A stretch of 64,000 nt of DNA from Colius striatus (lineage: Eukaryota; Chordata; Aves; Coliiformes; Coliidae). The DNA lies in contig NC_084767.1 of the NCBI RefSeq assembly GCF_028858725.1, positions 15,577,895-15,641,894 of the forward strand. Direction: 5' to 3'. This document shows positions 20,003-59,552 of this stretch, piece by piece. The notes under the pieces are model-generated. The model searched no databases, was not told the DNA's origin, and saw nothing but the letters and a program-made list of their open reading frames with translations. The translations under genes and the position numbers were made by a program. Every line of letters begins with the position of its first letter. Within the stretch, counting starts at the first letter, position 1.

Positions 20003-20730
20003 TTAAAGTTCATCACTTTCATACAGTCCAGACTGCTCAGCCAAACGCTGAAATTCTCCTTCTGGTGAGAAAGCTTGTTTCACATCCAGTCCTCTTCCAT
20101 TAAGTGCCAAATACTTGCTAAAAGTTGGTCGAACCCGTAACTGCTTTGGGGCTGGAGCTGGCTTGTTTGCATGGGCTGGAAAAGAAAAATAAAACCCTCT
20201 TTCAGTGTCTTCCCAGATTGTGGACAGATCTGTGGTAGAACAACCCAATTGCTTTTTCTCTGCAACATAAACCAGAAAACTCTTAGGAAGAATTTAACAG
20301 ACAAGCCTATGTCTCAGACACCAGAGATTCATCTTTACCCTCCTTGGTATCAAACTGTAGTCTTTAAACAGTGCAAATAGCAGATGCAGACCATGTGCAA
20401 GGGACACATCACAGTGTCTTGGTACTAAACAAAAGAGTTTTTCCCAGGATAGTTACTTTTTGTCTAGTTCCATATCTTTGGAAATAAATCCTCCCAGCAG
20501 TCTGAGCTTTGTTACGTTAATCTTGAGAGTCTGTCCTAAATACCAGTGCCAGTGGCAGTTTCAGTTGGGGTTGTGCCACTGTGACATGGTACTTACTTGC
20601 AACCTCCAGCCTGGCATGGCATGTGGCCACACCTGCTCCATTGACAGCTGACACAGTGTACCAGCCGGCATCCTTCTTGTTTGCATTATGAATCAGAAGG
20701 CAAATCCTTCCAGTATTGTCATGTAACAAG
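20003..20730 (-). CDS. MYOT: MYOT last two exons: end of Ig 3 and C-terminal tail
   Basis: Exon 20597..20730 encodes DNTGRICLLIHNANKKDAGW and the YTVSAVNGAGVATC strand F-G region. Exon 20003..20175 encodes PAPKQLRVRPTFSKYLALNG and ends SGLYESDEL, then TAA. Almost every residue of the tail matches mammalian myotilin. The terminal acidic residues are the PDZ-ligand end. Confidence 0.97.
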
Positions 20731-23700
20731 CTGAAAAATGAAAGTGTTTTATGTGTAAGTGCTTGGAGGGGGAAGGAGAGATTATATTGAAATCAGAGAG
20801 TCAATTTACATGCTGAGGAGCTGAGAAGGCACTAGAACAATTCTTGCAATTCTATTTATACATAAACAGTATTTCTGTTAGGAGCCACCAGTGATTCACA
20901 TCATTACATCATGCAGGTAGCATCAAAGCCCTTCTGTAGCCTCAGAGCATGATGAATGAATTGCATGTTTCAGTCTTAAAACCATGCTTCTCCATGGGAT
21001 TTGTAACTGCTGCTAGAATTTGGAGTGGCATCTGGTCACAGTTTTCTCCCTGTGCCCTCCAAACGAAGCTCTGAGCATGGTGCCTGTCCAGCACATGGGC
21101 TTGTTCACCATGTGTCACAGATCAGGGCCAGATCTAGCTTTCCAGTTTCTGCTTTTAAACTGGGCTTAACAAACACTGGTTATTATTTTCCAACACACCA
21201 ATGGGCAACTCATTAGTAGGATACCTTATTCGGTCTGTATTATATTGTACCATTTCGTTGTTTCTTTTCCAGTAAATCCGAGGTGTTGGGACAGCAGAGA
21301 TCTGGCATTCGAGCCTGGCTGTATCTCCTTCAAAAACCTTTTTGCTTTGTGGCTTGAAGATGAAAGTTGGAGGAGTGTGATGTTCTTTTGCTAAATCAAA
21401 GAGGAAAGATAAGGAGCAGGAACTGTAAATATTGAACGCTAATACTAGAATTGCTTTTTAAGGTTTCAGAGTGATAAATTCAGGAGGGCACATGTTCTTT
21501 ACTGCAACTTAGCCTACAGGCAATTCTCACGAACATAAGGGTGTAGTAGACAATCCACTTTGGAGAAGAGTCAATCAACGTGTTATCAGTCCCAAGAGAT
21601 TAATAACTCTGTAATCATGGACATGCCTCTGCATCGAAATATCTCAGTAGAAATGCTTTGAAGAAATATGGCATTGCAGACATATGTATTAAAATAGTCT
21701 TGGAAAAGGTAAGGTGTTTGTTATCATTTAAGCCTGAATATCTGGAGATTTACCTCTGCTTGTTAATTTTGTCGCAAATACACAGAGCATGGCACTAGAT
21801 CACTGAGATTTTCATGTGTGGCCAGGTAATTATCAGTGCTCTCAGTCTTACCTATTACTTCCACTTTTACAGCAAAAGATGCTTCTCCTGCACGGTTGAC
21901 AGCCACACATTCATATGTCCCTGCATCAGATGATTTGACTGCTTCAAAAATAAAGGAGTGGAATCCCTTTTCTGACACTATCATTTTATGGAACTGATCT
22001 TGATGAACCATCCTTCCATTCTGATACCACATCACATCTGGAGTCGGCAGCCCACTAACCTGTGAAGGAAAAGAAAGCAGTGAAGAGTTAAGTAGTTTCT
22101 GAGATAATAAAAGCCTGTCAATGCTATAGGGAGTTTGATGTCAATAGCTATTCAGATCATGATCCTGCTGCAAAATTTTACAGTCTCACCAAGTTTTGAA
22201 TCTTAATGTGCTGCTGCACAGAGAGGAAAGCTCATGAAGTGCCATGTAAGGAGGAGCTGTAGCTATAAGACAGACAGTAGATGCTGTTCCTGCAACCCCG
22301 TTATTTGCACCTTGTAAAGTAGTTTTGATTAGGTCAAAGATACTCCTTGTGTGTTCACAGCTAGCATTGTCAGCAGTGCTGACAACTGTACTGTTTTGAT
22401 AACATATGTAGATAAACTGTCCTCCAGGTTGTCCATGACATTCAGAAGTTGAGCAATTTGCAGCAAAATGGCTAAAGGTGGTGCTGAAATCTGTCATGAA
22501 TTTACTTAAAGAAAGAGATTGGAAGTGATTAGAGAAAACCAAGCCAAGCCGCAATCAGCAAACATGCCTTACAATGAAGTTTCACGTGCAGAAGACTTAG
22601 GTTCTTTCATACCTTAGGGTTGGTAAAATTGCTATGCAGTTTCAAGCCATTCTGGCATTTTGTTGGTAACTAAGGCATTTACTTGGCAGATCTGCTCCAG
22701 CAAGGACACACTTACCTCAGAGAAGACTCATTAAATGCAGGCTAGTCCTAAACAGGCCTTGATGGACATGTGTCCAGCACATGTCCACTGAGGCTGGTGA
22801 AGTCCCAGTGCAAAGCACTGGGTTCCCTACCAAAATGTCTTCTTTCAGCACCACCTTAATATGCATTCTTCCCAGTGAAGTCTAGAAGATGTTCTATGGT
22901 GGTCCATATTTACCACTATTTAGCTTTAACTATGTTTTTATGTAGCCAGTTCTATTTACATTTTCCAGGGGAAAATGCTGAAACACTTCGCCATCTCCTA
23001 TTTCTTGGTTTACATTGCACAGAGAGACCCTGCACCATCCGCCATTAGTGCTCTGGCTTATTAAAATGCAAAGGCACTGCAGCTCAGAGACCTCTTCATG
23101 CCACACACCATACAGAGCTAATGAAACTGAAAGGCTGGTATTACTTTGAAGTCGAGCCTGCAGAATCGCCCCTCCTCAATAACTATGTCTTCGGGCACTT
23201 GTGTAAAACGTGGCTGAAAAAACTTTTCCTGGATTGAGTCATGTCCACGTTCATCTCCTCTTGAAGACGGTCTGCTCCTAAAAAGCAAGACAGAGACAGT
23301 TCATTGTGTAAAAGTTACCACAAATGGCATTGAAGCACTAATTGCAGGTAGAGTCCCTTAACATATTTAGGAAGCTGACAGTAGAGTTCTGGTTTGGTTT
23401 TCAGCTGTAAGGCATGGGTTTTGATCAACCACTTGTCTTGCTCCATTCAGCACAGAAGCATAACATAAGAAACCTTCATCTTTGGCCTAATATCCAAAAC
23501 AATTTTACAAAAGCAATGTAGGCTGTATTTCATCATGCTATGTTTCATCATTTACATCGTTTGATTGGCGATTAGTCCTTTAGAATACAAAGCATATTTG
23601 GCCTAGGTGCATGGAATCTTTACATCCCTGGTGTTATACTTAGAATTGACTGGATTAAGATCATGAGCATCATCAACCATCCCTGAACGGTAGCATTTTT

Positions 23701-26700
23701 ACTGAAAGGAAGTGAAGGAATCTATTATTTACTACTTTAGAAAATGTGGTAAGTAGTGAAGTAAAACTAACATTGTCTAGAAACATTTGCAATAAGGTCT
23801 TGAAGAAAAGCACAGCAGAGGTTTATGCATTACCTTACATGTGTTGTAGGAACCTGCAGCCTGATGTTTTCCGCATTGTGGTGCTTGGAAGGAGAGAAGA
23901 GACATGAGTTAACTTCGAAAGTTTAGAGATAAAACCACATGAGAAGCCGTTTTAAGTTCATATACTGACTACTGCTTAAAAGCAAATAGCATACTTCAGA
24001 AGTCATTGAGACAAGAGGTAAAAGAACTTGCATCAGGAGCTAAATACTCTGTTTTCACCCTAGGCTTTGCCATGACAGTAACAAGTACTATGAATAGAAT
24101 GGCATGGCTTCTCATCACTGCACAGGTGATAGGTGCAGCAGTTTTGTTTGGCACACAAGGCTTTTGGCCAGCCAGCAACATTTGCTAGAGAAGAGCTGTA
24201 CTACTAGCAGTATCTAAAATGAGAGCTAAGTACAGAGTGTCCTTCCCTATAGCAGGAATAGAAGTGGAATTGCTGGCAAGAGCTCTGTATTGTGCCCACT
24301 TAAATATGGTACCAATAGCAATGGACACATGCTGAGCTGGAAAATACTTTTCTTTCTAGATCACAGCACCAACTAAGTTTGCTGACAGCTCCACAATCAC
24401 ATGAGTAAATCTGCTAAAGTACCTAGGATTGATTCCTGCTAGGAACGTGGATGTTTGGAAAATGCAAGTAGAGTTTATTACCAGTGGCTCATTTTAGCAA
24501 TGGGGTCAGATAGAGGAAACACTGCAGGGAAATTTGAGGTGTTTGCATTGAGCCATTACAATGCTTGGTTCTGTGCTCTGTAGCCTAGTCCTGTGGAACA
24601 CTTAAACCTGGGTTTTAAAACTTCAAGCAAAGAAGCAGTCTTCAGTTCAGGGGAAGCACTACAGGAATGAGGGTTTTGCTGGACTGAGCTCAGTGCTGAG
24701 TCCAAAGGCAATTGCTTGTATCTGGTTATTTACAAAAATTCCATACAATTGTTACTTGCCTTGTGAAATAACATTGTAGTGATGAAGTTGCTGATAATTC
24801 TAATTCTCTGTTATATGGACTATGTAGTTAAGTTCCTGATGAATCAGGAGGCCAGATGAATCAGTGACTACAATATTTAGACTGAACAATGGGAATAAGA
24901 TCTCCCAAACATAAGCCAATAGAGATCTCCTTCCAATATTCCTTTTTATGCAACATTTCACACATCCTGGAAAGTTGGCAGGCATCCTGTTTTGACTGTT
25001 TCCTTGTTCTCTGCAAAAGATGAGGCTTCCCTTGATGACATCCATAATATTCCCTTCTTGCCTGCTGTTGTTGGGGAGAAATTGCTCAAACTGTGTATTC
25101 CTCCCTTGCTGTGACTTTAAGTGTCTCTTCACTGAAGAGTTTTGCTAAGTACACTTTGGAAGGTATATGCCAACCTGCTTGGCTCTCTGTGTGCATGTAG
25201 CAGGAGGGATATTTTCTTTGGCCATATAAGTACCCAGTGCCACATCACAGACATTTCCACTAACTTTGATCCTGGAAGTGCCAAAGAGAGCTTTTAACAG
25301 CCTCAATAACCAAGGAATGATACAAGTCCCCAACTAAAATGCTTTTGAAAATGTCACTAGCTATAGATTCTTGTCTGTCAGCACGTGGGCTGCTAAAATA
25401 ACTGCTTCACCTTCTCTTAATGATTGTAGGCCCCGGGAAGGGCTAAAACCCAACTGATCCCACCCTCTGGTCCTGACCTCTTGCAGTCAGTGTCACTTAT
25501 TCCAGTGACAGGTATAAATCTTGCTGTTCTAGCCAAGTCTGAACTTGGGCTGTTAGAGTGGGTACCTGTGTCCCTTGCTGTGCTGCTCTCTGCCTATCAC
25601 AGGCAGGATGTAACGGGCTGTGCAGCAGCTGTTAATTCCTCCCTGAAGAGGTCATTCTTACAGATCAGACCCAGCAAGGGGATGGTGCTTAAATTCATCC
25701 CTCTCTACCACCACCCGCCAAAAAACTACCCAAATCACTACTATACAGAGCTCTGCCAGTGAGAGCTGTCCCCTTTCTTCCCCTCCCCTGCACTGGTACC
25801 AAATAAATGCCATCTCTTGGCCTAATTTAGGTACAAACTGGTCACAGTACAATCACCAGGTAATCTATTCTAGAGACAGGTCCCCATTTACCTGTGCATT
25901 CTGCATATTGTCTTCACTTGGTGTTTCCAACACAGTTGCGGCAGTTACTGGTCCAAGCAGCCTGCGAGCCATTCTTTCTTCATAAGTTAATCGCTTAAAG
26001 CAGAGCAGAGAGGAATTCTAGTCAAAAGTCCATTTACTATTTCAGATCAGCTTGTAAGAGCACATTCATAGGCCACAAATTTGGGGTGTTATCAATTAAA
26101 GCAGTGGCTGAATAGAAACACCACGTCTGTTCCAGAGGGTCTGCCGTCTGTGATGCCTGATGAACTCAGCCTCAATATATACAGGGCTGAAATGCATAAA
26201 AGATTAAACTGCCTGTTCATCAAAGCCTCTCTAATGCCATCTGTGGCCTTCCACTCCTCCTCTTTCTCCACTGGGATTATTTATGGGTAACTGATGGCAT
26301 TATCTCAGAAGCCAGACTAAGTCCCATGGTACCTTTCTGTTAGCACTGGGAAAACTTCCCAAGTCATTCAGCTGTGGATTTGCTTCAGGGGCTAGAGACA
26401 TGATGGATGCTAGTGTCCCTTACTCCCAAAAAAGCAAGAGCCACACCAGAGGCAGACACAGCCGAAGAGGAACACCACTACTCCAAAAGCATAAGAGAAG
26501 TTTATGCCAGCACAACAGCCTCCTTATAAAATGCTGTATGCTGTATTGAGGGGAGGCAAGTATGGTTTCAGTTACATAACAGACATTCCTACAACATGGA
26601 TGCAGCACACAGGGATAAGTAAGAGCAGAGCTAAATCTGAGTTTTGTCAGTTGAGTTACTTCAGAAGAGTAAATTTTAGGAGTCCCCTGAGCACCAGAAC

Positions 26701-29700
26701 ACTTGACATTTCATTTCCCCCAAAGTTTACCTTGGGTTTGGATTTTGTGATGCGAGGACAAGCTCTGAATGGATTTCTACTGAGAATGGAATATGTATAT
26801 GGCTACCCCATGGTAGATGAGGGTTTGGGAAGGCTAGTGGGATTTTTCTTTAGAAGAGACTTTTTGCAAAACCTGTGAGAGATTAATATCCAGGAGGCTG
26901 TTATGGCTGTATCAAGTGTGGCTGAGATTGACCAGTTGGTTCAGACATTGTTGGAGGACAAGGGGAAGAGGACAGAAAGTGGTGATTGCATAAGCTTTAT
27001 TTTTAGCCTGGCTTCCTATGGGAAGATAAGCTGGCTTGCAATAGCAACCTTTCTTACAGCAGATAGGACATTCCTGTTAGGGACACATTAAATCAGATTT
27101 GACCCAATATTTTTTTTTCCCCTTTCAATATTTAAAAGTAATAAATATGACACAAACATGTTTCTTCTGATGGTAATGGAAAAACTCCTTTCTACTTCAG
27201 GGGAAAGAAGATGGAAATGATAAACACTGGGCGTTTACCAGTCTGCCTCCAGCCAGCAGCAAGGTTCCCACATTAGAGACCTGCTCACTCTAGCTTGCTA
27301 CAATGCACTTCCCTACTGGTAAGCAAATTTTCCCCTCTCATTTGGGGAAAGGAGATTTTCTTGGTAAAGGAGATTGCATTTCGTCCCTTCGTAGAACAAA
27401 TAAGCAGGTACTGACTCTAAGGGAACTTCTTAGAGGAGACAGACTTTAAGATAAAATCTCCTGTAGCTTCTTTTATTTGTTGCTGTTCATATAAAAAGAA
27501 TCAAATAGGTTTACCAGATGTGGTGATGCTCTCTAGAATGAGCTTTCGAATATTGGTACTTCTCCAAGTTCCTAATGATTCAGGGTGGCTTATTAACCCC
27601 AGTGTTGGAAGCCAAGGTGAAATCATGTGTGGAGAACTGAGGGATTCTCCTTGGGATTCTAGTTGTCTGTGGATGAGATGTTAAGTAGGATCCTCAGCAA
27701 AGTGTTCAAGTTTGTGCCACAGCTCTAAACATGTACCTTTCTCCTGACCCTAGCTTTATTAATTTGATTGCACAAACTCAGATAGTTTGAATGGTGTGTG
27801 TGCTGGCCAAGAGAGTAGGATAAGAGCTTTGAGCCATAGCAGCTCAAAGCCATCTTGCTGCATCAGATGGCTTTTGCTTTCAGAAGTGACTGCATCCCTT
27901 GCTGAAGTCACAGGAGATGCAGACATTCAGTGGCCACAGCAGATGCCTATAGATAGACTTACAGCAACCATCTCATTGCCCCACATTCAGGACAGCTTTA
28001 ATCGTGCACTAGCTATGTGCTGCCCCTCTACAGAAAAGGGCTTTCTCAGGCCTAAGCTGAACCTGGCCCACCAGTACAGCTGTTTGCATTCTAATAGCAA
28101 AAATAACTGTAAAGAGGATGTTTGCAAAGAAAGAGGTTGGATGTAAATCTTTCAGAACTGTGCCTTTTGTACCAGCCTTGAGTCATTGTCAGAAGAGATT
28201 TTTTTTGCATTTCTAATGCAAAAATGCAGGCACCTCACATTGAAAGAATATTCTGGTCATAAATGGCTCAGTGAACTCTTGCTGGGATCTGCTGAGGATC
28301 TGAATAAAGGTGCTTGGGGAGTGTTGCTCCTGCATTTCTGTCTGCTTTGAGCTCACTTTGGAGGCTCCAGGCTATGGGGCGTTAGAACTAGTCTCGGCAT
28401 CCCTGCTTGTACTACCAAGAGTCAGAGCAAACTGATTCTTCCACCAGCAGGTTTCCCTTACCTGGTTGCCATTCTGGAGAAGGCTGTCTTTGCAGCGGAG
28501 TTTCTTTTCCAAGTCCTGAATGAGGGCCTCTTTTGTTCCTCGAATTTCTCGGTCTGATGTCCTCTGCATAGAGTTGATGCTAGCTTGTTTGGTATACATT
28601 GGTTGTGAGTAACTACTCATTCAGGAAGAGAAAACAAAGTTATTCCTGTAGGCCTGCTTGACTGTTTGCTACAGCTGAATGCACACAAAAATGTGAACCT
28701 GCTACCTATAAACAGTGGTTCAAATGAACTGGTAAAGCATTTGGGAGACAGATAGGCTTGATGGCTTAATTGAGTATGAAAAACTTAAGGGGAAGAATCA
28801 TGGTCTAGCCCAGTCATTGAATGTCCTCCCACAATTCTTACAGCAGTTGTGGTCGCTGTTCAGCATCCTTACATCCTGCAGTGGCCCCTGCCTTGATTCA
28901 GGTGTGTGTAGTAAGGCTAGCAGGTTTTTGAGGGACCCAGTAACTCCACTGAGTAATGTGAGCCTGTCCAGGAGCAAGTTGTCCCTAAGAAACTGCATTT
29001 GTTTACAATTTCAGCTGTTAAAAAGGCCCTGGCTGCTGTGAATTCACAGCACAATCACAAACTAGTTGATTAAGTACGAACAAATAGCTTATTAGTGTTT
29101 ATTACTACTTATTACTACTGAGGTCCTTCTTCTTGGCCCCAGAAAGTTGCTTCATATAGCACTTCTGTCCAGATTTTCCATAGCCAAGCTTACCCCAAGC
29201 TAGGCTGGATCTTTAGGAGCCCTTGCTGCAACTCCTCATGTTAGCTTGATTCTGTAATACATAGTCAAGAGACTAAATCAAATCTTGGAGCTAGATAGTA
29301 GACTTGATACTGAAAGGTGCTAGAAAAAGAGGAGCATCCCTCAAAATGGATTGTGAAGGTCTACTAGAGGTCTCAGCACTCTGTGCTGCCAGGATCTAAT
29401 GCAGTTCATTACATGCAGCAGGGCCTCATATGTTGCAGTTGTGCTCAGCAAGTATTTATTCACAATCCTTTTCCTCCTGTTGCTTGGGAATTTCTTCTGC
29501 TGATTACAATAGGGTAGAAGGGTTATAAATCTGTTTGTATTCCCAGTGCTGCTTGGACTTGATAACTTGCCCAAATTATGACTTGAGAACTTCAATAATT
29601 TGCCCAACAGATTTAAATGTCTCGTGTCCCTATTTGCCCACTTGTAGCATGATTAGGAAAATAATTCCTTGCCTCACAGGATATTGCATTTAAGAGCAGC

Positions 29701-32700
29701 CTACTTGAAAAGCATAGAGAGGCACCAAAGCCTTTTGCTATGAAAACAAAACAAGCTCACCCTACCCACACAAACCCCAGACATGTACCTGACCCACACA
29801 CACTCCTTCAGTATTTTGAAGAATCATTCCTTAATGCCCCAGCCAGCCCACTCCGTTTTACCTTTTTTGCTTCCCACTGTTGTGTGATTCGGAAAAGCCC
29901 CAGAAACATTCAGAATTCCTAAATACAAACTGACTCTCAAACCTGAATTTATATCCAAGCCAGCAGGACCCCCCGCCCCTATCGTCTTTCTAACATCCTC
30001 GGTTGAGTGGTTGTTGCACATTCTACGCTGACTTTCTTCAAGAACTCCAGCTACTATTGGCAGGGATACACGTTGGTGAGAAGGCAAGACCCAGCTTTGA
30101 GATCTCACTGACCTTGTGAGATATTTGGATTACAGCCCAAAGGCAAAATGATATAATACATACTCAGGAAAGAATTTAGTCTTGGGTCTCAAGAGGTAAA
30201 ATTTTCAAGTGGCTGCCTTTCTGTCAGCACATACGATTAATAAAAACTGTATTGTACGTGAGAGTAGAGTCCCATCGCAATTTAAACCTGAAAATACTGC
30301 TGAGACTTACTAGGAATCTTGAAGTTGTTTATATGTGGGAAATACTACTGCCTTCCCCCCTCATCCCCATTCATTTGCCATGTTTGTTGATGGAAATTCA
30401 TTTGAGATCAGTGTCCATCCTCTGTTCTCAATACCCTTAAATAAGAGATTTCCATCAAATAAAACTGAACTGTTCAAACTGACTCCAGAAAACCCTCACA
30501 ACAGCCTGTGACATGACCCCTGTGCAGTTCAATTCCTGGTGGATACCCATCTGTCCCATGCAGAGCCCAAGGGAGAGCACTCAGCCTCCTAACCCAATTC
30601 ATGCAGAGTCCTGCCTCCAGCATCAGAAGTCAAGGGGGAGTTGTACCATTAGCTTCACTCAGGCTAGTGTTTCACCGGGCAGTCGGATTTGGGACAGTCA
30701 GTGCACGGGAGAGGCCAGGCCAGAGGAAAGCGAGGGGAGGTTAGAAGCCTGTATATACTTACTGAGGTTCCATAGGAGAAGGAGTTTGACTGTTATAGTC
30801 AGGCTGTGAGGGTAGCACCGAGCACAGGAATGCTGCAGGGGGTTGGTTAGGCATGGATATAAGCCGTTGCCCAGATGATGAGCTAGCAGGAGACTGCGCA
30901 GATGCAGGCGTGACGGGATATGTGGATTCCTTAGGGACACTACAGGAAGGCGAGGAGAGCGTGATTGAAGAGCTCAGCGATGACGAGGAGGAGAATTTCT
31001 GCCCACTTGGGTTACGAGGCTGTATTAAGATGGAAGACTGTTTGATTTGTCTGCTTGACTCTGTAGAGGCTGCAGGTCCTGGAGGCTGCTGTTGCCCTTG
31101 ACACACGTTCTTAGACTGGATAAAGTGTTTTGGACGCTCGTAGTTAAATGTGGTTGGTTGGCACATAGAGGAAACAGATGGGAAACTAGGGACACTCATA
31201 GGAGAGGTTTCACGGCTGTCCTGGCTTTTTGTTGGTGATAATTGGCTTTGGGTAGGTGGCTGGTAAAAACTAGGTGGTAGGCCACAAAAGCTTTCCTGGC
31301 TGGGCTCCTGGATAGAATGGAACCCTTGCCTTGCAGAATAGAGGCTTTCCTGGTGCGGATTTTCACTTAAGGAAAACAATACAGATAAAATAAAATGTAC
31401 ATCATCATACGAATCACAAATATACTGTGTTGTGAGCAGTCATTAGCAATCCAAAGAGTATGAATTTCAGGCAACTGACAAAGCTTGAGCTTAAAATGCA
31501 GAGGTCGATGATTGATTGGAGCTAATCTAGAACCGTATGAACATTTTCGATTACAATAACAAGTCACGCACTCCATGTGACTTGGATGCAGTGCTCACCA
31601 CTGCTATCTCATCTGCAAGAGCCCACTAAATAATAAAAGCAATACCAACTGGTTTATTGAGATGAGCCACCACCTGTGTAAGCGTACAGACAACTCTAGA
31701 TACAACTGCTAAGCAAGGTAATGTGCCACATACCATCTTAACTAACCATCTCTGGATCCTGCAGTGTTGTGCCCTGTCAGAATACTGACTGTGCTGTTAC
31801 TCAGAGAGCTGGCTATTTGTGCTGAGAAATTCCTTGCACCATAGGGAAGCATGGAACAGCTTCCACTTGCTTTTGAGCCTAAAACTAGGCCCTCAAAACC
31901 AAGTATCCCGATTTCTTCTCTAGCGGTTTTTAAATTCAGAGCTTTTTATATCCCACTGAGGTTGGGGATTGGAATGCCAAGAACTGTGCTTTTTGTTTTG
32001 AAGTGATTTCCAGAGATTTGCTATTAGGGCCAGTAATTACCAGAGCGATATAGCTGTAGGATAAAGCAGGGGAAGCCGAGCTGTTCAGAGGACCTGCATT
32101 AACTTTGCATGTCCTTGATATCTAAACCTGGTCTTTTCACGGGCTCAAAACCCAGGAAAGTTTCATTAGTGTAAACTTGAGCCAGTTTGTTAAAACTGAC
32201 AAACAATCTCCAGGATAAATAAATGACCCCCTAAAATAAATGTAAAGCCACTAATAAAAAATGAGAATATAAATCCACAGTTACATCTGCTGGAAAAAAT
32301 GGTAATCTCGCCGCACTGAGCTCAGCTGTTTCACTGCTATATATACCCAGTGTATTGTATTCCTCCTGTTGGAGAGCCCGAAAAAGGGCTCCATGGGGTC
32401 ATAAATCCCCGACGAGCTGAAGACATCGCTCTCCCTCTGAAGATTCAAAGCTTTTATTTTCTAAAGGTAATTAACAATATTAGTTGTAAATTAACTGTAC
32501 ATTAACAGGATTTCTAGTAAAAAACCCCCTAACTTTCCCCTTATCACGCTCTTGGAATTTGCAGCTGGCTCAAAGTTTTGGAGCATGTCCACTCCATGTT
32601 CTCATTCCCTGGTGCAGAAAACTCATTGAATCTGGGGGTTTTTAACATTATTTTTTTAGCACTACTTGTGCACAGATTCATTCCTTTTACCTACAGCCTG

Positions 32701-35700
32701 TATACAGCAACCAGCACCTATTTTGTTTTCTAGAATGCTGGACGCAAACAAGGTACAATGCAGAGACTCACTTGTCCTAGCAAGAGATAAGTTACTTTTC
32801 CTCAAATCATTCCACCTTCATTTGTGTGGGAAAAAAAATTATCCAAGACCTTACAAAACCTAACCAATGAGTAATAACAGAGATACTCAGCTTTTTGGGT
32901 TTCTTCTTGCCTTGTTAACTCCCACATTACCTTTGACACCTCGGCAACACCTCGGGATGTTTCTACCTCGTGCCCTGCACCTTCCCACCTCAGCTGCCCC
33001 AGCAGCATCCCAGGCAGGAGTGACGTGGAACAAAACCCACCCGCAGCACCTTACCTACAGCCTGGGGGTGGTCACCGAGGCTCTGACCGGTATTTTGGGA
33101 AGGAACCGTCATCCACTGGCCCGGGCTGTCATAGCAGCCTCTTCCCGGCGCTCCGGGCCGGCGGCTTTAACGTGCTGCCAGGCTGTGACACGGTGACCTG
33201 CCTGTCCTCCTGCCCGCACCGCTGTCAGAATAAGAGTCTCCGGCAGCCCCGCGGGGACACTTCATTTAAGGGCCGGGCCCCGGGGGCTGCGGCAGGTGCC
33301 CGCCGTCAGTAAATCACCCGCGTGGGCCGCGGGAGGACTCGCCGCCAGAGCCCCGCGCCTGCCCGGGGCCCTGCCCGGCCACGGGAGGAGGGAGCGGGGA
33401 GCGGGGAGCTGCTGGCTCCGGCTTTCCCTACAGCAAGATGAAGCGGCTCCCGGTGTTCAGCCGGAGAAGCGGAAGAATTGAAGGAGTCGATAGCTACCGG
33501 ACAGAAAAGTAGCGGTTTTTTAGGCTGCAACAGCCGTCGTGGAGCAGCAGGAAGGACTGCAGCTACATGCTTAAACGCCTCTAAATCACACTCCATTGTC
33601 TCAGTGAAACATCGTTTAAAATTAATTTACTCTTCGGCTGTAGCTAATTGCCTCGGTAGTGATAACATCCTGGTACTGCTTTTAAGGCTGTGTACTCAAA
33701 GGCTGCAGATACCTGAAAGCCAGACGTAAATCCCCATTATGAATTAACTCCCCAGCAGCATATTGGGCTGAGCGACCTGTGGGTGCCCAGGGCTGCTGTG
33801 CCCTCCTCCCCTGATGCCACTCCCAGCTTTGCTCAGGTATGGTGCTTATTCAAGAGCAGTGGCATGGCTCAGCGATGTGCCTGAAGAGTCATCAACTGTA
33901 TACCACGAATAAAATATAGTTGGTGTTAGAATAGTATTTCACATTCTGTGTGTGTTACTACAGAGAGTTCCTTGGGTTAAAAGATGCAACTCTGGTGTTT
34001 TCACCAGAACAGCAACAGATCCTGCTGGCAGATTAGGTGATTTGTATCCCTTTCATCAAAGGCTTCATTGCTTAATTACATCTTAAATTAACATTTTAGT
34101 GGTTTAAGCATCTGAATTATACCTTGGCAACTGTTCCTGAACATGCGCACTAATGCAAAGCCCTCAGCACAGCCAGTGCTGCAGCTCAGCTGCCTGTGGG
34201 CTCTCAGTTGCCTCTTCTTTCCCTTCACTGAACTGGTGAGTATTTCAGCACAGAGATCTTCAAGAGTGAATTCACATTTGGAGTTTGTATTTCAATATCA
34301 GTGTATCATTTGTGGAAAAAAAAAAATCTACATAGCAGGTGTTGAGTGCTAATTTATTGAGTTCTAATTTATTGGAAGTTTCTGGTGATGAAAGTGGTTA
34401 AGGGAAGAAGCCTGTCCCTAGTTGTTGAGGAGTTTATTTGCTTTTTAAGTAAAAAAAGTAATCCGTAGTTTGCACAGAGAGTTGAGTACTTAGAAAAGGT
34501 AGCTCTAGCAGGATCATTTGCCCTGTAGGAAGCTGTGAGCATGATAAAGGTCAGGCTCTGTGCTCAGACAGGCTCCGTGGCTTCCCAGAGACTTCAGTGA
34601 GGGTGCAGCATGCATGTTTCAAACCTGAAGTTGTCTGCAAAGTGTGAATTTAAGGACAGCTATATGCCTTGAAAAGGTTGGGTACAACTAGGACAACTTG
34701 TGTGGGAGAGGAAGAACAGAAAAATGTGAGATCCAGAAGGTAAGAAAAAAATTGAAAGAACTAGAAGCTGAACTAATAAAGGCAGAGGAATAAATCTCAT
34801 AGCCTGTGCCAGCGTAACTTAATAGTACTCTGACTGGTGCTGAGAGGTATTAGAAACCAGCTTTTCTGTAATGCTTCAGTTTACTTTCTATGAATGGTGA
34901 CTTGTTGTGTTTGATTGGGTTCTCATAGTTGCTTGAGTTATGTAGTAAAAAATAGCAAGGGAAAAAAGATTATCTTGCTTATTTACTGGGGAATCTTAAA
35001 AGCTACCTAAAAGACTTGGCAGTATACTTAGTGCCTGAAGCCACTTCTTGTGCTTGGATTAACTTCCTTTAATAAAGTTAATAATCAGTGTGGACTTTGT
35101 TCTGCTTCTTTAAGGCTGTTGAGAGGATACTGTGAGCAGATATAAAGGGCTCAGAACAGAGTAGCTGGTAGTGACAGTCTTCTAGGATTGCATTTGCTAG
35201 CTTTGATTGAGTGGCTGTTGCCAAGCGATAATTTGGAGAAGTATGAGTACAACGGCTTCATTCATTTCATAGTTATTACCAGTAACAGCTTTGTTCTGTC
35301 ATTGCTGTCTTTGTTGTTCTTTCTTTTTGTCTTTAGTAATATGGTTGCAACCAAATATGCTACACAAGAGAGTCATATGGCTATATCTGTCTAACAAGAC
35401 AGTTATTGTACAGTTAGACTTTGGAGATAGTTGCTTAGTTTGAGGTAACATCAGCATTTACAACGTCGAGTCCCATTCGGAACGATATTTCAAAGCATGT
35501 GGCAATAAGGCTGTGAGCTTTAAAGAGATTTGAATGCTCATCTGGTTCAGCATTGCTGTCAGTCAAAAGCACTCTGAAGCTCTGTATGCTGGGTAATGTT
35601 TTATGCAATCCCGATTTTTAAAAGCTCTTACATAGCTGATGTTGGTGGTATGTTATATCACTTCATGAAGAACATTAGGTACTACATTTCCAGCTATCCA

Positions 35701-38700
35701 GAACTTTAAAAATGCAACTACAGCTCACTGGTACTGCTGCAAGCAATCAACTTTACAAGTACTCATCCTAAGCTAAGTATCATCTGAAAGAGATTCCCCA
35801 CAGATTGCTTTTTAGAAATGCCAAAATACAGACTTCCTCCTGCCTTTGAGAAATCTGTAGAGAGGCTGGAAAACTAGTCCAGTTCTAAAAAGCTGGCAAA
35901 TGTCTCCTATTGCCTCTGTTCCAAGAGGTAATCATGCCAGAGATTTTATAAAAGGCCTTCATTTTGCTTCAGCAGATGATCAACAGTCTGACGTTGTTTA
36001 AAACAATCATCACGTAAAGATTACAGGCTCTTGGTCTGTGTTAGATGCTCCCAAGCAAACAGCCCTATCTCTAGGCTTTTGGACCTGGGCTAGTTGAGCA
36101 TGAGTTAACTTGAATATAGTGCTGCATTTGCTTGTGACTTTTGAAGGCAGCAGCAGCACGTGAACAAGCTGTGAGCAAGTCCTCTGCAGCTTAGCAATGG
36201 TTCAATCTCCTAAAGCCTGTGCAAGTTACCTTCAGATGGGGTTTTGATTTTGCAGTGGGGTCTGCTTAGAATCCCAGCTGATTTCCCTGGAGCAAGCCTG
36301 GATTTCATGGGAGGGCTCAAAGCTAAACTGAGAGCCTCTTAGTGATCTGCAGGTTGTTGAAGCAAACTTTGTGATTTAGCAAAAAAATTCCTGTGCACAG
36401 AGACATTTGTATTGAAATATGATCTCTCCTGTAATGGATTTGATTAAGGCTGTTCGGAACTGTTAAAATAACCACTTTAGTTAAAGTGGCTGAGTATATC
36501 CAAACTATTTACACATGATATAACAGTATCACTCCAATGCAATGCTGGCATTCAGCTGAGAGAGGAGACACGTCTACTTTATAGCTCCCACCTTCACAAA
36601 CAGGAGTGAGGAAACTCCTCTGCAGTGCTGCACTTGGACCTCTTAACTGTCATTACCTAAAGTCCTCCTTATGCTCCTTAACACCTGAGAGACACTACAA
36701 AAATCTGGGATGGATTTGCTAAGATGTGCATTCTAACTTGTTTTGTTTCTCTGGAACAATTAACTGACAATGCAATAAGTAGATAGCTACTTTGCTGCAT
36801 TTGGGACAGAAATTGGACTGAGTCTTTTTTTAAGATGAAAAACGTTATTCCTGTGGGGAAATCTCCATCTCCCAAGTGGGAAGTTGTCTCTATTGGACTG
36901 TGGGACAGTTCATTCTCTCCAGTGGGTCACAGATTCAGTACTTTTCCTCCACAGAGTGCTTTACAGGTACTGTCTGCACATTTACAGAATCTTGAGTTTT
37001 ATTGCTGTCTTTCAGAATGAGAAACACAAGCATCAGCTGATGCGCCCTGGCCAAAGCAGCAGAGGAAGATAGTTCCTTGGTACTGTGATCTTTGTCTCAT
37101 GCTCTGCTGTGGAGCCCAAGTTCTTCTAGAGGCTAATTATTTTGGATGATGCTTTAGTTACTTATGTATAGGTGCATCTGAAAATGCCATTAGGCACTTA
37201 ACTGAGTGTTTTGATAATTTTGTACTTTGTCAGATGGAGTGTGTGCTGTTCTGTAGCTGAGCTGGTGTTACATGTTCCCATTGTCAGACAGGCAAACAGC
37301 TCAGGTTACTCCATGTGCATGTTTCCTTGTTAGACTGTAAGGCACAGGAGCTTTGCAGTTAGAATCATAGAAGCATTACGATTGAGAAAGGCCTTTAAGG
37401 TCATTGAGTCCAGCCACTAACCTCATACTGTCAAGCCCGTCACTAATTAAACCATGTCCTTCAGCACCTTGTCTATGTGCCTTTTCAATATCTCCAGGGA
37501 TGGTGACTCCACCGTCTCCCTGGGCAGCCTGTGCCTGTGTGTGTAACAACCCTCTCAGTGAAAAAATTCTTTCTAATGTCCAATCTAAACCTCCCCTGGT
37601 GCAACTTGAGCCCATTTACTCTTGTCCTAATTGTGGTGCTGAGGTCACTAGAAAGTTCACCCCCTAAGTATCATATAAAACTAATGCAGGGATGTGACTT
37701 TTCTCTTTTGTCTTACCACAGAGGTGAAGCCTGAGGTGAATTCTCATAAGCGCCATGAAAGTCTTCAGCTTCACTCTTGGAGTTCATCTGACTGAAGTTT
37801 GTGGCTTCTGCTCGACTGCCCAGCCCTGTTGTGTCTGTGCTGTAGGACAGCAGGCTAGCTGCCTCTCGATCCTTGGCTCCTGTCTGGCTATTCCTAGGGA
37901 AGGTGGGTTTCTTCATGGTAACTTGCATAGCAGGGCTGTGGGCAGCACTCACAAAGCTTTCCAGCTCTTTTGCTCCTGGAATTAGAATTGTCCACAAGTC
38001 AGGTAGAAAGCAGTGGTCGTTTACCAGTATAGTGCACTGCAGTAACAGAGGGAGAGAAACTAGTATGTCTGTGAAGGAGGATGAGAGTTCAGCCTGCCTG
38101 GGCCCTGCAGGAACCAAGACCTCCACAGCTGCTTTAGCCAAACCTGACTTCTCCCAGGGCTGGTGAAATTTAGTTTCTATGGAAGATGCTGTTCCATTTG
38201 GAGATGGCTTTCAGCAGAAGCTAGACACCTTGTGTTACAATAAAAAAAGTATAGTTACAGCCAAGGTGTTGGTCTGACGAGGACTCCCTGAAGTGATGAA
38301 ACTCAGGGATGAGTCCTCCGTGAGAGGGAACATCATCTTCATCTTGTCATCCTTGACCCGCGAGAGAGAGACCAAGAGCAGAAATGCAGAACAACTTGCA
38401 TCTAGCTTTGAGAAGTACCCAAGCAGACTCCATTTTTGGGGCATTTCTTTTCTTTTTAGACTAGTGACTTCTACTTGACAAATAACTGTGACTCTATCTG
38501 ATGTTCAGCATCAGCAGAAAATTCTCTTGTGCTTAGTTGCTCAGGTCAGATATCCACATGCTTACCTGGGGAAACGGAGAGACGTGCACTGGATGCTGCA
38601 GATCCAAATTCATTTTCAGCAACACATTTAAATATTCCAGAGTCTTCTGGAAAAGCTTCTGTAATAACCAGGGTACAGACTTCCTCTGAAATCACAAATT

Positions 38701-40613
38701 CAGACATGCTGTTGTACCATAGAAGCCAAATGTTAGCTTGTAGGAACTGGCCCTTACAGAAAGACTGTTGCCTTGTGATGGGGCTTGACAGCAATAAAAT
38801 GCAAATAAGGGATGTAAAGGACATAGGAAGTCAAGGGATTCAGAAGGAGTGAAGTTGAAGGAAGAATCTTTCTTCCAATGACTTCAATGAAATGAAGCAC
38901 ATTTTTTTCCTAAATTCTGTCTTTTCTTGTGTGAGTTTAAACCCCAGGAAAGATTGTAGTCAGAGGGGTTAATGAGTTTTCCCTTAATATATAGGGTACT
39001 TTTCCTTGACTGAATGTAAGAGAGAATAGCTCTTTCATTGTGTTGTGAAAAAATTCAGGGCCTTTCAGGTGCTTGTATCAAAATGAAGAAAGCTCTTAGC
39101 CTGGTGCTGAATGCTATCTTCTGTCTACTCTTTGAAGATTATTGTTGTATCTTGGATGAGGTGGGAAAAACTAAGTGTGGGGTAATTAACCAATGAGACA
39201 TCTAACAAAAAATGTGTGGCATACTTACCAGGAACTGCTGATGAACAGGCCTCTGCTCAAAATAAGAGAAAAAAATAAATGGTTATAATACCATAATGGA
39301 AGAAAGACCTTCAGCCCTTCCTTTACCACCTTAGCTGTCATCTTGGTTACAAAGGGACCACCTCCTGTTCTGTCCATCAAGAGAAATAGTATCTAGATAG
39401 GAGAAGATCAGGTTTGACTGGAAACTGATGGTACAAACATCTTTTTGCTGAGGTAATACAGAAAGAACTCCACAGATTTTGGAGTTAGTCACTGTGAATT
39501 TGGCCCACTGGAGTGATGACCTCGTGTCTGGGAGAGTTATAAATTGTTTAGAATGTGCTTATATTTCACCTTTTTCCTGTGTTCATCAGTAGTTATACAA
39601 AGACAATGCCTCTATGTCTCAGCAGTACTTTCATTAGTAACTAACAGCATGGCAGTCTCCTCCCATTGGGCCTGACCTGCTCACATTGCCAGAGAACGCA
39701 CAGGCTCTGTACTGCAGCCTGTGACTTCAGGTTGTCTGATACTTGTAAAGTGGACTCTGCCTCTGTGAACGCGTACATTCTCTTAATTTTTATTGCAGTT
39801 CTTGTTTCACTCTTGTACAGTAATTTTAGTGGCACAGTGATATCAGACATAGTAATACCCACTTTTTCGTAGTATTCGGAAGTCAGCAGAATCTGTGATC
39901 TGATCATATTCTCTGTACCAGTGAACCTGTAAGGTGGGTGTAGCACGAATGCGACATTCAAATACCACTAATTGACCCTTTGTAGCTCTTATGTTTTGTA
40001 GACCCTGAAGGAGGAAAAAAAACTGTGTTAAATATTTCCCATTGAAGCAATTATTCCAGAGTGATACACTCTACAGTGAAGAAGATGAGCTCGTGCCCTT
40101 ATTTTTATTTTACTTATAACTGTTGATCTAATTCTAAATGCATTTGCAGTGAGTTGTAAGTGGAGTTGTTTGGTTTTTTTCACCTCTAGACCAGTGCTCA
40201 TTAAAAGGTTTTATCTTGCTTATGCGTTTAAATAAAGATACAAGTGCAGGAAAAACATCTGTTCCAGTGGATACAACATAATAAGGGAGGTTACTATGAG
40301 AGGTTTCCAGTTCAGCCTCATTTGTAAGAAATAAATGAGGTGAATTCACATAAGTGGTTCTGTCTGCCTGGAACGTTTAGCAGGTAAGATGTTTGATAGC
40401 ATTCCTAATGAAACAAATGGCTTTTTTTAAAATTGTAAATGAACCAGCTTCCCAGCCTCAAAATACCTTCTGCTGGAGCAAGAAAACTCAATATCTAATG
40501 CTAATGGCTGCAGAACAAGCTATGTCTTTCTGCCAGCCTGTGCTCTTTACCTTTGTAAACACAGGTGTGCTTCCATAGGCTGACCCAGTCAGGCTCGCTG
40601 AGGGACTCTGCAT
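20003..40613 (-). CDS. MYOT: MYOT, myotilin; predicted long form with three Ig domains
   Basis: Exons, first to last: 40551..40613, 39863..40004, 39229..39252, 38566..38685, 37717..37975, 30763..31365, 28462..28615, 25892..25993, 23834..23883, 23145..23277, 21852..22059, 21225..21390, 20597..20730, 20003..20175. They sum to 2331 nt (776 residues plus TAA) and all junctions keep phase. Order: palladin-like Ig (about 17-116), Ser-rich linker, myotilin Ser-rich region (FNYERPKHF at 276), EALIQDLEKKL helix (about 440), Ig (about 525-620), Ig (about 625-720), C-terminal tail. The last nine exons match mammalian myotilin closely. Myotilin cross-links F-actin at the muscle Z-disc and binds alpha-actinin and filamin C; its C-terminus (ESDEL here, ESEEL in man) is a PDZ ligand for ZASP- and FATZ-type partners. 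The first five exons have no counterpart in the mammalian protein. Gene identity is near certain; joining the upstream exons into one transcript is inference from phase and homology. Confidence 0.85.
21225..23277 (-). CDS. MYOT: MYOT exons for Ig 2 and start of Ig 3
   Basis: Exon 23145..23277 (PRFTQVPEDIVIEEGRFCRL) opens the first conserved Ig domain. Exon 21852..22059 (VSGLPTPDVMWYQNGR, then KMIVSEKGFHS and DAGTYECVAVNRAGEA) completes it. Exon 21225..21390 (FIFKPQSKK, then LECQISAVP and WKRNNEMVQYNTDRI) opens the next Ig. The Cys, Trp and DAGxYxC residues of I-set Ig folds are present. In mammals these domains carry actin, filamin and dimer contacts. Confidence 0.96.
23834..28615 (-). CDS. 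MYOT: MYOT exons between the Ser-rich region and Ig 2
   Basis: Exon 28462..28615 encodes GTKEALIQDLEKKLRCKDSL, the short helix conserved in myotilin. Exon 25892..25993 encodes RLTYEERMARRLLGP. The 50-nt exon 23834..23883 encodes HHNAENIRLQVPTTHV. Acceptors and donors are canonical. The introns 23884-25891 and 25994-28461 hold nothing I recognise. Confidence 0.95.
28616..30762 (-). other. MYOT: MYOT intron without recognised content
   Basis: Between the Ser-rich exon and the EALIQDLEKKL exon. I see no repeat family, RNA gene or additional exon. Confidence 0.6.
30763..31365 (-). CDS. MYOT: MYOT large Ser-rich exon, open upstream of the mammalian start
   Basis: A 603-nt exon. It begins with one base completing a codon after TTTTCCTTAAG and ends two bases into a codon at GTAAGT. 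From codon 276 it reads FNYERPKHFIQS, the start of mammalian myotilin, but the preceding codon (31149-31151) is ACA, not ATG. About 70 further codons precede it in frame, Ser/Pro/Gln rich (SIQEPSQESFCGLPPSFYQ). In-frame Mets lie at 31197-31199 and 31164-31166, both with weak start context. The Ser-rich disease region of human myotilin corresponds to KFSSSSSLSSSI here. Confidence 0.95.
32336..32348 (-). promoter_or_regulatory. MYOT: candidate TATA box for a short MYOT transcript
   Basis: Minus strand reads GGGTATATATAGC. CAGCTG E-boxes, the type bound by MyoD-family factors, lie at 32562-32567 (upstream) and 32323-32328 (near the expected start). It is about 1 kb upstream of exon 30763..31365. 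A chance match cannot be excluded. Confidence 0.25.
33030..33490. promoter_or_regulatory. intronic CpG island in MYOT
   Basis: CG-dense block (for example CCGCGTGGGCCGCGGGAGGA) within the large MYOT intron. It may be an internal promoter for short myotilin, a promoter of an unrelated non-coding RNA, or a silent GC-rich block. Confidence 0.5.
37361..37645 (-). mobile_element. CR1 LINE fragment
   Basis: Plus strand begins AGAATCATAGAAGCATTACG, continues GAAAGGCCTTTAAGGTCATT and CCCTGGGCAGCCTGTGCCTG: the reverse complement of a CR1 3' end. It lies in the MYOT intron, with its edge only about 70 bases from the donor of exon 37717..37975. Confidence 0.9.
37717..37975 (-). CDS. MYOT: MYOT long-form exon: Ser-rich linker
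   Basis: A 259-nt exon after TTCTAATTCCAG, ending at GTAAGA. It begins by completing a Gly codon and reads AKELESFVSAAHSPAMQVTM, ending with two bases (TG) of a codon. The following exon supplies T, giving Cys-Glu-Asn-Pro-His. The stretch is Ser/Thr rich with no fold I recognise. Its exact phase fit on both sides is the main evidence that the upstream Ig belongs to myotilin. Confidence 0.8.
38566..38685 (-). CDS. MYOT: MYOT long-form exon: second half of N-terminal Ig
   Basis: A 120-nt exon following ATTTGTGATTTCAG, donor GTAAGC. It encodes EVCTLVITEAFPEDSG, then FKCVAENEFGSAASSARLSV: strands E to G of an I-set Ig domain with the D-x-G-x-F/Y-x-C signature. The wording EEVCTLVI...EDSG resembles EEICTLVI...EDSG of palladin and myopalladin. 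Confidence 0.85.
39229..39252 (-). CDS. MYOT: MYOT long-form 24-nt microexon
   Basis: Flanked by a strong tract and acceptor (TTTTTTTCTCTTATTTTGAG then CAG) and a GTAAGT donor. With the flanking bases it reads KACSSAVPE, giving RILRKKACSSAVPEEVCTLV across three exons. Palladin and myopalladin carry a similar insert at this place (KKPRSMAEPEEICTLV). Because 24 is a multiple of three, skipping keeps the frame. Confidence 0.75.
39863..40004 (-). CDS. MYOT: MYOT long-form exon: first half of N-terminal Ig
   Basis: A 142-nt exon after TTTCCTCCTTCAG, donor GTGGGT. It encodes GLQNIRATKGQLVVFECRIR, then VHWYREYDQITDSADFRIL. The Cys and Trp of the Ig fold are present, and the motif GQLVVFEC...WYRE...DFRIL is that of one Ig domain of palladin and myopalladin. 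Confidence 0.85.
40551..40613 (-). CDS. MYOT: MYOT long-form first coding exon
   Basis: A 63-nt exon after CTTTTCTATGCTTTACAG, donor GTAAAG. It encodes MQSPSASLTGSAYGSTPVFT and a final Lys, the run-in to the Ig domain (palladin family proteins have PVFTK here). Its first three bases are ATG. Joined to the 42085-42158 exon the start context is ACAATGC, and the upstream frame contains stops, so translation probably begins here. Confidence 0.7.
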
Positions 40614-41032: not shown

Positions 41033-42084
41033 CTCAGAGCTATAAGACAACTAGTTGCCCACATTTTGTAGTCTCTATGTAAAAATCAGTGAGGCTTGCC
41101 AATAGTAGTCTCCTTCTACAGAGATTTCCTACTTGGTTTAGTTGATCTCAGGTCTAGCTCTTTTTGGTTTGTGTGCTATATGAAGTAACTACAATGAGAC
41201 TGAATGTAGAGAAATGAGCAGGAACTTTGGTGTTTTGTCCTGAAATCCCCCTGTAAAGCTCCACTGGTGCAGAGGTTAAAATAAGGTCTCTGGTTAATCA
41301 AGAAAGGCAGTTTTCAGGTGATCAAATGTTTGCAGTGCAGGACAGGTCCTTATTCCTTATGGTGGTGCACTGAAGTGCACTTTCATTGGCCCAATCTAGC
41401 TTTTGAACTACATATCTTGCATATAAATGTGCAACTGGAATGCTTGGATTTGTTTTGTGTTGTCACTGGTCTTTTATATCATCACTCTTTTTTTCAGAAA
41501 TAACCCAAGTTATCATCTCTTTCCCTCCCAGCCTGAGTTAAGTTGTTAGTCTGTCTCTAGATAGTCTGACCTCCCTAGCTCTTGACCAAATATGTGCTCT
41601 AAACCAACTATCTGTTATGAAGTGAATCTTTGGAGTAGGCTGACAAATAGCTGAGCTGCATGGCAACCCTTCAAGCATTTCCAGCCCTGTTGCCTGCTTC
41701 ATCACTTCTCTTAGCAATTCTGTCTGGGAAATGTTCCAAGCCAGAAAACCCTTTTCAGGGCTTAGGATCCATTCTTCAGATTCATGATGACCCTTGTGTC
41801 TTAGTCATTTACTGAAGATGTGCTTAAGCTGATCCTTACAAAGTATTTGTAGAATACTATAAATACTTTAAAAAATGTGTGACCTACTTTTTGAGGGCTG
41901 AATTAAAGTGGTGTAACTGGTGAACTGAAGTCTAGAGACTTCATTGGCTGAGGAACCAACAGTCAACAAAACACTGGTGACTTTCCACTTTTTCCTAGCT
42001 TGAGGGAAAAAAATAAACAGGACAGGATAGAGACAGAGACTTCAGCAGGCTGAATATACTTGACCCAACAGTCTTTGTACTTAC

Positions 42085-58754: not shown

Positions 58755-58960
58755 CGTTGACGCCGGGGACTCTCAAGCCGTGTGGTTTCGCAGCGCCAGG
58801 ACTCGCCCGGGTGCCAACAGCCAGCCGACGGCAGGTGGCACCAGCGCCCCGCGCCTGTCCCGCCACCCGCGCTGGTGCCGCGGAACCCGCGCGGCTCCTG
58901 GCTCAGCGCGGCAAAGCCTGCCGAGCGCTTGCGCTGCGAAATTGAGGCCGTAGCAGAGGT
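58755..58960. promoter_or_regulatory. CpG island in the gene-free stretch
   Basis: Short CG-dense block (for example GGTGCCGCGGAACCCGCGCG) about 16.6 kb upstream of the probable MYOT 5'UTR exon. No gene is attached to it. It is a candidate distal promoter, but direction is unknown. Confidence 0.45.
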
Positions 58961-59129
58961 GCGATATTGGTGTGGGTTTTTTGTATCTATACATAAGCAT
59001 CTTCACAGACAGCTGCTGGCTGTCATTCTTCCTGTAATTCTTCTTCCCATCTGGAGCGTCTTGCTGCGGTGGTTTGTAGAGGAACAAACAAACAAAAGAT
59101 CTGTTTTCTGCTTCGTGGCTGATGGGTGA

Positions 59130-59552
59130 GGCAAAGCCTCTTATTGCCCAGGTGGGCCCAGACCATGAGGAAAGGCTGTGGGATCTGGGGCTGTTCAGCC
59201 TGGAGGAGACTGAGGGACGATCTCATTAACACTTACAAGTATTTAAACGGTGTATGTCAGGAGAATGGGGCAATATTTTTTTTCTGTAGTGTCTAGTGAT
59301 AAGACTAGAGGTAATGGACAAAAGCTGGAACACAAGAAGTTCCACTTAACCAAAAATTACTTTACTGTTCAGAGGAGGGAGCCCTGGCACAGGCTGCCCA
59401 GGGAGGGTGTGGAGTCACCTCTGGAGATTTTCAAACCCGCCTGGATGTGTTCCTGTGTGACCTGATCTAGGTGGACCTGCTTTAGCAGAGGGATTGGACT
59501 AGATGAACTCTACAGGTCCTTTCCAGCCTCCACCATTCTGTGTGATTCTGTG
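59130..59552 (+). mobile_element. CR1 LINE fragment (longest copy in the window)
   Basis: Contains GGGGCTGTTCAGCCTGGAGG, AACACAAGAAGTTCCACTTA, GGCACAGGCTGCCCAGGGAG and ends CCATTCTGTGTGATTCTGTG. Plus orientation. Confidence 0.95.

Follow-up and report, generated by a model that had tools for sequence, protein, structure and literature searches.

Might a bird produce a myotilin longer than the mammalian protein, and if so, from which start? The question is raised by the myotilin gene (MYOT) of Colius striatus, which lies on the minus strand of a 64,000-nucleotide stretch of contig NC_084767.1 (positions 15,577,895 to 15,641,894; here called the window, with all positions counted from its first nucleotide). 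A preliminary description of this DNA had claimed that five exons upstream of the exon encoding FNYERPKHF have canonical splice sites, run into that exon without a break in phase and encode one complete I-set immunoglobulin (Ig) domain, so that the bird would make a three-Ig myotilin of 776 residues. Our data bear out the exons and the domain, and we suggest that bird MYOT is probably nested in the manner of palladin, with two starts: an internal one giving a two-Ig form and an upstream one giving a three-Ig form.

The long MYOT frame consists of 14 minus-strand exons running from 40613 to 20003; its spliced translation (2331 nucleotides, 776 residues) contains a sole stop, at the 3' end, and all 13 introns have GT/AG borders. 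The front is formed by exon 1 (40551..40613; 63 nucleotides, MQSPSASLTGSAYGSTPVFTK), the ATG of which stands flush after an AG acceptor, exon 2 (39863..40004; 142 nucleotides) with the first half of the N-terminal Ig domain, exon 3 (39229..39252), a 24-nucleotide phase-1/1 microexon within the domain, exon 4 (38566..38685; 120 nucleotides) with the second half, and exon 5 (37717..37975; 259 nucleotides), a linker. These exons are entered in phases 0, 0, 1, 1 and 1, and exon 6 (30763..31365; 603 nucleotides), which encodes FNYERPKHF and two internal methionines, Met259 and Met270, is entered in phase 2. In a scan of the first 403 residues the I-set family matched residues 17-114 (1.2e-18). These results confirm that the upstream exons are real, intact and in frame, and that they encode one complete I-set Ig domain. 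GQLVVFECR and EAASLLSYSTDTTGLGSR are peptides that we name for the predicted long form.

The phase-1 end of exon 4 and the phase-2 entry of exon 6 call for a bridging exon. In the 7,200-nucleotide stretch between them, all four candidates for such an exon use the donor at 37717, and their acceptors differ (38068, 38059, 37921 and 37834); three of the four are at least 200 nucleotides long. The filter applied here asked for an acceptor pyrimidine fraction of 0.6 and a good donor, and both the acceptor at 37975 (0.53) and that of the accepted exon 4 (0.59) fall below it.

The gene in the window can be identified as myotilin. For the C-terminal Ig pair, the PDB chains named Myotilin (2kkq, 7.8e-47; 2kdg, 4.5e-42) give stronger matches than 2dm3, 'KIAA0992 protein' (8.2e-32), which we take to be palladin; long multi-Ig titin and Robo chains reach expectation values (E) similar to those of the Myotilin chains by summing domains. 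The linker between the two C-terminal Igs reads AKEHHT in the window, and AKEHKR, AKEAHK and AKEVKK are given for myotilin, palladin and myopalladin, respectively (PMC5479843); AKE is therefore a family-wide feature.

To which domain of the family does the N-terminal Ig correspond? The comparison set comprised palladin (PALLD, contig C4), myopalladin (MYPN, C10) and MYOT (C11) of the same 1.21-Gb genome, in which the first two names were assigned from homology and human sequence. A genome search with the MYOT Ig exons recovered palladin (64%, E 1.3e-10 and 46%, E 5.3e-10) and myopalladin (58%, E 1.9e-10 and 54%, E 8.0e-7), and also an unsplit Ig on contig C13 with a slightly better E (1.0e-11) at a lower identity (46%). 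The preliminary description had held that palladin and myopalladin share such an Ig and had proposed an alignment with them; in this alignment the whole domain is 59% identical to Ig2 of palladin and 59% identical to Ig2 of myopalladin, which upholds the statement. Identity to the other domains of both relatives is lower: 34% for the Ig1 halves, 24-36% for Ig4 and Ig5 and, by tblastn, 23% for palladin Ig3, the one Ig3 domain compared.

The exon structure leads to the same counterpart. Of the exons that precede the Ig, the one in MYOT starts with MQSP, that in palladin with VQSP and that in myopalladin with AQSP, in every case directly behind an AG acceptor; they end with VFTK or IFTK (VQSPTSYL...STPIFTK in palladin, AQSPTNYL...APVFTK in myopalladin). 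In all three genes the first Ig2 exon has 142 nucleotides, a 24-nucleotide phase-1 microexon follows at the same place, and the FNY-type exon is entered in phase 2. When scored with a palladin string, the microexon reached 33 in palladin and 36 in myopalladin, with runners-up at 4 and 8; scoring with the MYOT string put the myopalladin microexon first (13 vs 1) and the palladin microexon second (11 vs 12). Among 17 intron candidates, the MYOT microexon ranked first against the myopalladin string (13, runner-up 9) and tied for first place against the palladin string (11 and 11). Compared exon by exon, long MYOT and palladin have the same order from Ig2 onwards up to the stop, and residues 216-391 in exon 6 are homologous to the FNYARPKQF exon of PALLD; this comparison gave no MYOT counterpart of Ig1 or Ig3 and no convincing match for exon 5. 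Scans of genome-contig and viral-contig collections for the N-terminal Ig returned no relative, as expected there. We conclude that the N-terminal MYOT Ig is the counterpart of palladin/myopalladin Ig2.

Palladin thus shares with bird MYOT Ig2 and its microexon, the FNYxRPKxF exon, the later exons and the C-terminal Ig pair, and it has several start sites within one gene, as we read bird MYOT, but it has an Ig1 and an Ig3 that bird MYOT lacks. Myopalladin shares the Ig2 exon pattern and the phase-2 entry of the FNY-type exon but differs in its motif (FNYTPTKQF), in having a single Met ahead of the motif in that exon and in being described as a single five-Ig form (PMC10069870).

The N-terminal Ig looks anciently inherited and long constrained. 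It is equally distant from two Ig2s that are themselves 67% alike, and the standard domains of myotilin show a similar spacing: myotilin Ig1 is 53% identical to each of its palladin and myopalladin counterparts (71% alike), and myotilin Ig2 is 57% and 49% identical to its own (69% alike). Had the domain been copied from palladin recently, or had it long been free of constraint, a divergence like that of the two standard MYOT Igs would hardly be expected. At first, second and third codon positions, differences number 19/8/26 against palladin and 19/9/25 against myopalladin in exon 2 (46 codons), and 11/7/21 and 10/10/22 in exon 4 (37 codons), so that third positions differ most in both exons against both relatives. 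As both relatives have Ig2, we infer by parsimony that mammals lost the MYOT front.

The preliminary description had further argued that FNYERPKHF lacks a Met directly before it and that the upstream exons are thereby forced on the protein. This argument fails: Met259 and Met270 lie in frame in exon 6, 17 and 6 residues before the F of FNYERPKHF, and palladin of the same genome has Mets at the identical two distances from its F (PMSILNSHTSPTMQSSSSFNYARPKQF). Human 90-kDa palladin presumably starts at the first of these two Mets. An internal start is also suggested by primers for reverse transcription polymerase chain reaction on duck MYOT, which were designed from GenBank duck sequences (PMC10998670). 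The forward primer fits at 33227 with 4/20 mismatches, equalled by none of 200 shuffles in the intron, and the reverse primer straddles 33055|31365 with 14 + 10 bases and 5/24 mismatches, a fit that none of 500 shuffles reached (best, 7 mismatches); a split search for the reverse primer at no more than 4 mismatches gave no match. The alternative first exon predicted for the short form (33055..33227, minus strand), with the donor CTGTAG|GTAAGG joined to 31365, sits within the 6.35-kb intron 5; its 173 nucleotides run from the start of the forward primer to the donor, its 5' end being the primer match and not the true start. It is held by a CpG island (32901..33700), a candidate internal promoter and one of four CpG-rich stretches in the window, in which 33050-33500 has a GC content of 0.68 and an observed/expected ratio of 0.79 and contains both primer matches. 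The primer fit points to use of the acceptor at 31365 and to a separately promoted short form (518 or 507 residues), which is probably the main MYOT product. TATA-like sites at 32345 and 31950 in intron 5 had been considered as short-form promoters and were dropped in favour of the 33.2-kb exon. The predicted short transcript also contains a 75-codon upstream frame, the TGA of which shares bases with the start codon of Met259 (ATGA), so that a stop-restart control is conceivable.

The claim of a three-Ig, 776-residue myotilin therefore stands as a statement of coding capacity rather than of expression, given the 14-exon frame, and is doubtful as a statement of the sole form, given the predicted internal first exon that fits the duck primers. 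Mammalian myotilin has 498 residues and 10 exons (PMC8002584) and only two Igs (PMC5479843), whereas the bird long frame carries a third, N-terminal I-set domain; the predicted bird short frame has two Igs, as in mammals, and bird MYOT resembles the mammalian protein in its C-terminal Ig pair and in its 501 residues from the FNY motif on.

Combining these observations with published work on the family, we suggest that in C. striatus (i) a CpG-island promoter at about 33.1-33.6 kb would drive two-Ig myotilin of 518 residues (from Met259) or 507 residues (from Met270), which should act like mammalian myotilin, and (ii) exons 1-5, a heritage of the common ancestor of the three family genes, would contribute Ig2 and a linker to a three-Ig product of about 776 residues. 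That the long form is transcribed and functional, and that the internal promoter is used, are in this scheme predictions from the genome. The term 'nested gene' has been applied to palladin, with its alternative start sites (PMC2859948), and four alternative promoters as well as 200-, 140- and 90-kDa forms with five, four and three Igs are described for it (PMC10069870); long and short MYOT would be analogous to the four-Ig 140-kDa and three-Ig 90-kDa palladin, respectively. Mammalian myotilin binds F-actin via its Ig pair and flanking regions (PMC8062120), and the shared C-terminal pair would likewise anchor both bird forms to F-actin at the Z-disc, with the extra Ig, about 160 residues ahead of FNYERPKHF, possibly forming a second contact. 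The Ig1-Ig2 region of palladin bound CARP/ANKRD1 and FHOD1 in a two-hybrid screen, and the authors of that account hypothesize that only 200-kDa palladin, which carries the CARP-binding region, reaches the I-band (PMC10069870). Perhaps the extra Ig meets the same partners; this is a guess, as the mapped interactions used palladin Ig1 and Ig2 together. More tentatively, and with more doubt than conviction, we raise the possibility that birds, perhaps all non-mammalian vertebrates, express a distal-start three-Ig myotilin as the equivalent of 140-kDa palladin, that partners of the palladin Ig1-Ig2 region such as CARP/ANKRD1 or FHOD1 are brought by it to the Z-disc or the I-band, and that it was lost in mammals.

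Where would the long form begin? The ATG at 40613 is flush with its acceptor and stands where palladin has Val and myopalladin Ala inside their frames, and a further 5' exon is therefore expected. Long-form translation probably begins at this ATG after the loss of older upstream coding exons. A possible relic or 5' untranslated exon lies at 41888..41994 (minus strand), 1.3 kb ahead of exon 1, and resembles the exon linking Ig1 and Ig2 of palladin: KVTSVLLTVGSS compared with KTTSVSLTIGSS, followed by TTLIQP compared with TTAVIQP (tblastn E 0.024). With the palladin linker as query, no other minus-strand segment of the window scores as high locally (45; next, 34), and the segment stands in the expected place and order; in the upstream 23 kb, the part of the plus strand that was scored, the linker reaches at most 31, and 7 of 300 shuffled linker queries reached 45 within 23 kb. 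The myopalladin linker gave no match to 41994-41888, the segment is likewise missing from the matches listed by the genome search, and its donor, which lies behind a run of five A where an assembly error is conceivable, is in phase 1, a mismatch to the phase 0 of exon 1. Possible readings of the segment are a leftover from a still longer ancestral gene and a first exon that is not translated. Between it and exon 1, at 41033-40900 (minus strand), lies the end of a repeat that we take to be CR1-like.

No credible copy of palladin Ig1 was found upstream of exon 1 in 23 kb of the window; the best match (63816-63893, E 9.5e-5) was rejected, as it lies on the other strand and contains a stop. In a genome search with palladin Ig1, the linker and the next exon, the matches listed on the MYOT contig include no separate Ig1 near MYOT: they are only the two myotilin Igs, i.e. 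the N-terminal Ig and the first C-terminal Ig, and one place 2.5 Mb off. Far upstream, 58501-59200 is CpG-rich (GC 0.56-0.59, observed/expected up to 0.89), carries no gene assignment in our analysis and could be a distant promoter of the long form or belong to another gene.

How do other explanations of these exons fare? They could be a recently silenced remnant, with all myotilin made from the internal promoter, which we consider unlikely but worth weighing. The duck primers fit the short form, there is no CpG island just upstream of exon 1, and the linker candidate at 41994-41888 looks frame-broken and would show stepwise erosion of the front; however, neither the frame nor the splice sites are damaged in any of the five upstream exons, and the N-terminal Ig is no more diverged than the two standard myotilin Igs. 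Very recent silencing would still be compatible with evidence from a single genome. The idea that the exons yield a separate, early-ending Ig2-only product of about 203 residues, apart from the myotilin body, draws on the exon 5 donor, where read-through meets Trp-stop at once, on an AATAAA at 37003 (minus strand) 0.7 kb past this donor, which is one of seven A(A/T)TAAA sites in intron 5, and on early termination as one of the sources of palladin isoforms (PMC10069870). We regard it as improbable, since the donor is a GTAAG, exon 5 bridges phase 1 to phase 2 exactly and the homology of exon 6 to palladin coding sequence extends to its portion ahead of FNY.

That the three-Ig form is this bird's myotilin and no short form exists would agree with FNYERPKHF having no directly preceding Met, but the Met positions shared with palladin and the fit of the duck primers to a first exon in a CpG-rich stretch of intron 5 make this very improbable. 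Hardly credible to us is recent gene conversion or a misassembly that put palladin exons before MYOT: beyond resemblance to palladin it has nothing in its favour, the equal distance of the domain to palladin and myopalladin Ig2 speaks against it, and a genome search with the MYOT exon 6 stretch brought up nothing close elsewhere (next E 2.66).

Several points nevertheless weigh against a two-start MYOT. The long form is a prediction from genomic sequence, and no CpG island occurs from 33.7 to 58.5 kb of the window. The domain tree, in which Ig3 was omitted, joins the MYOT Ig, the Ig2s and the Ig1 halves at 90/92 with no separate Ig2 fork, and no fork attains the starred level. The acceptor of exon 5 is uncertain, and as the candidate acceptors vary, the length of 776 residues is approximate. 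With regard to the short form, the primers were made for a different species and were scored once a match had been seen by eye; a search for the reverse primer in unsplit form gave nothing at 6 mismatches or fewer, and its split was chosen by eye before the shuffles were scored. The examined stretches of palladin (58430001-58460000 left out) and myopalladin contain no CpG island, and the likeness to the internal promoter of palladin is therefore one of layout only. Finally, Puz et al. 2017 aligned 85 vertebrate myotilins and reported for birds only an 11-residue N-terminal insertion, which suggests that the bird myotilins retrieved there were short (PMC5479843); the terms 'three Ig', 'third Ig' and 'N-terminal Ig' are absent from the text of that paper. 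Among the papers listed by our literature searches none deals with a third myotilin Ig; bird gene models in the databases may already include the long frame.

The remainder of the frame also lies on the minus strand. Exon 7 (28462..28615) has counterparts in PALLD and MYPN and exon 8 (25892..25993) in PALLD; exon 9 (23834..23883) is part of the spliced frame. Exons 10 (23145..23277) and 11 (21852..22059) encode the start and the remainder of myotilin Ig1, the counterpart of palladin Ig4, and exons 12 (21225..21390), which includes the AKEHHT linker, and 13 (20597..20730) those of myotilin Ig2, the counterpart of palladin Ig5. Pigeon MYOT primers (PMC11271864) match exon 12 with 2/18 mismatches and exon 13 at 20/20 positions, which identifies the gene with MYOT as known in birds. 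Exon 14 (20003..20175) encodes the C-terminus, ESDEL followed by the stop. Directly downstream of MYOT, 18800-15100 (minus strand) holds a CpG island and exons of a polycystin-like gene, one exon of which matches the Pfam polycystin domain (1.6e-14); PKD2L2 is the neighbour of MYOT in human.

Myotilin is a Z-disc protein that has been studied as a two-Ig protein of 498 residues, and its mutations cause muscle disease. Birds may make a longer myotilin than this mammalian form. If birds keep Ig2, the family ancestor very likely had it, and mammalian myotilin would be a reduced protein in which the short form alone is left. Such a history would recast the relations among the three family members and offer a natural comparison for the role of an N-terminal Ig in muscle. 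If, moreover, the long form is expressed and was lost in mammals, current models of myotilin and the myotilinopathies would cover half of an ancestral two-isoform system.

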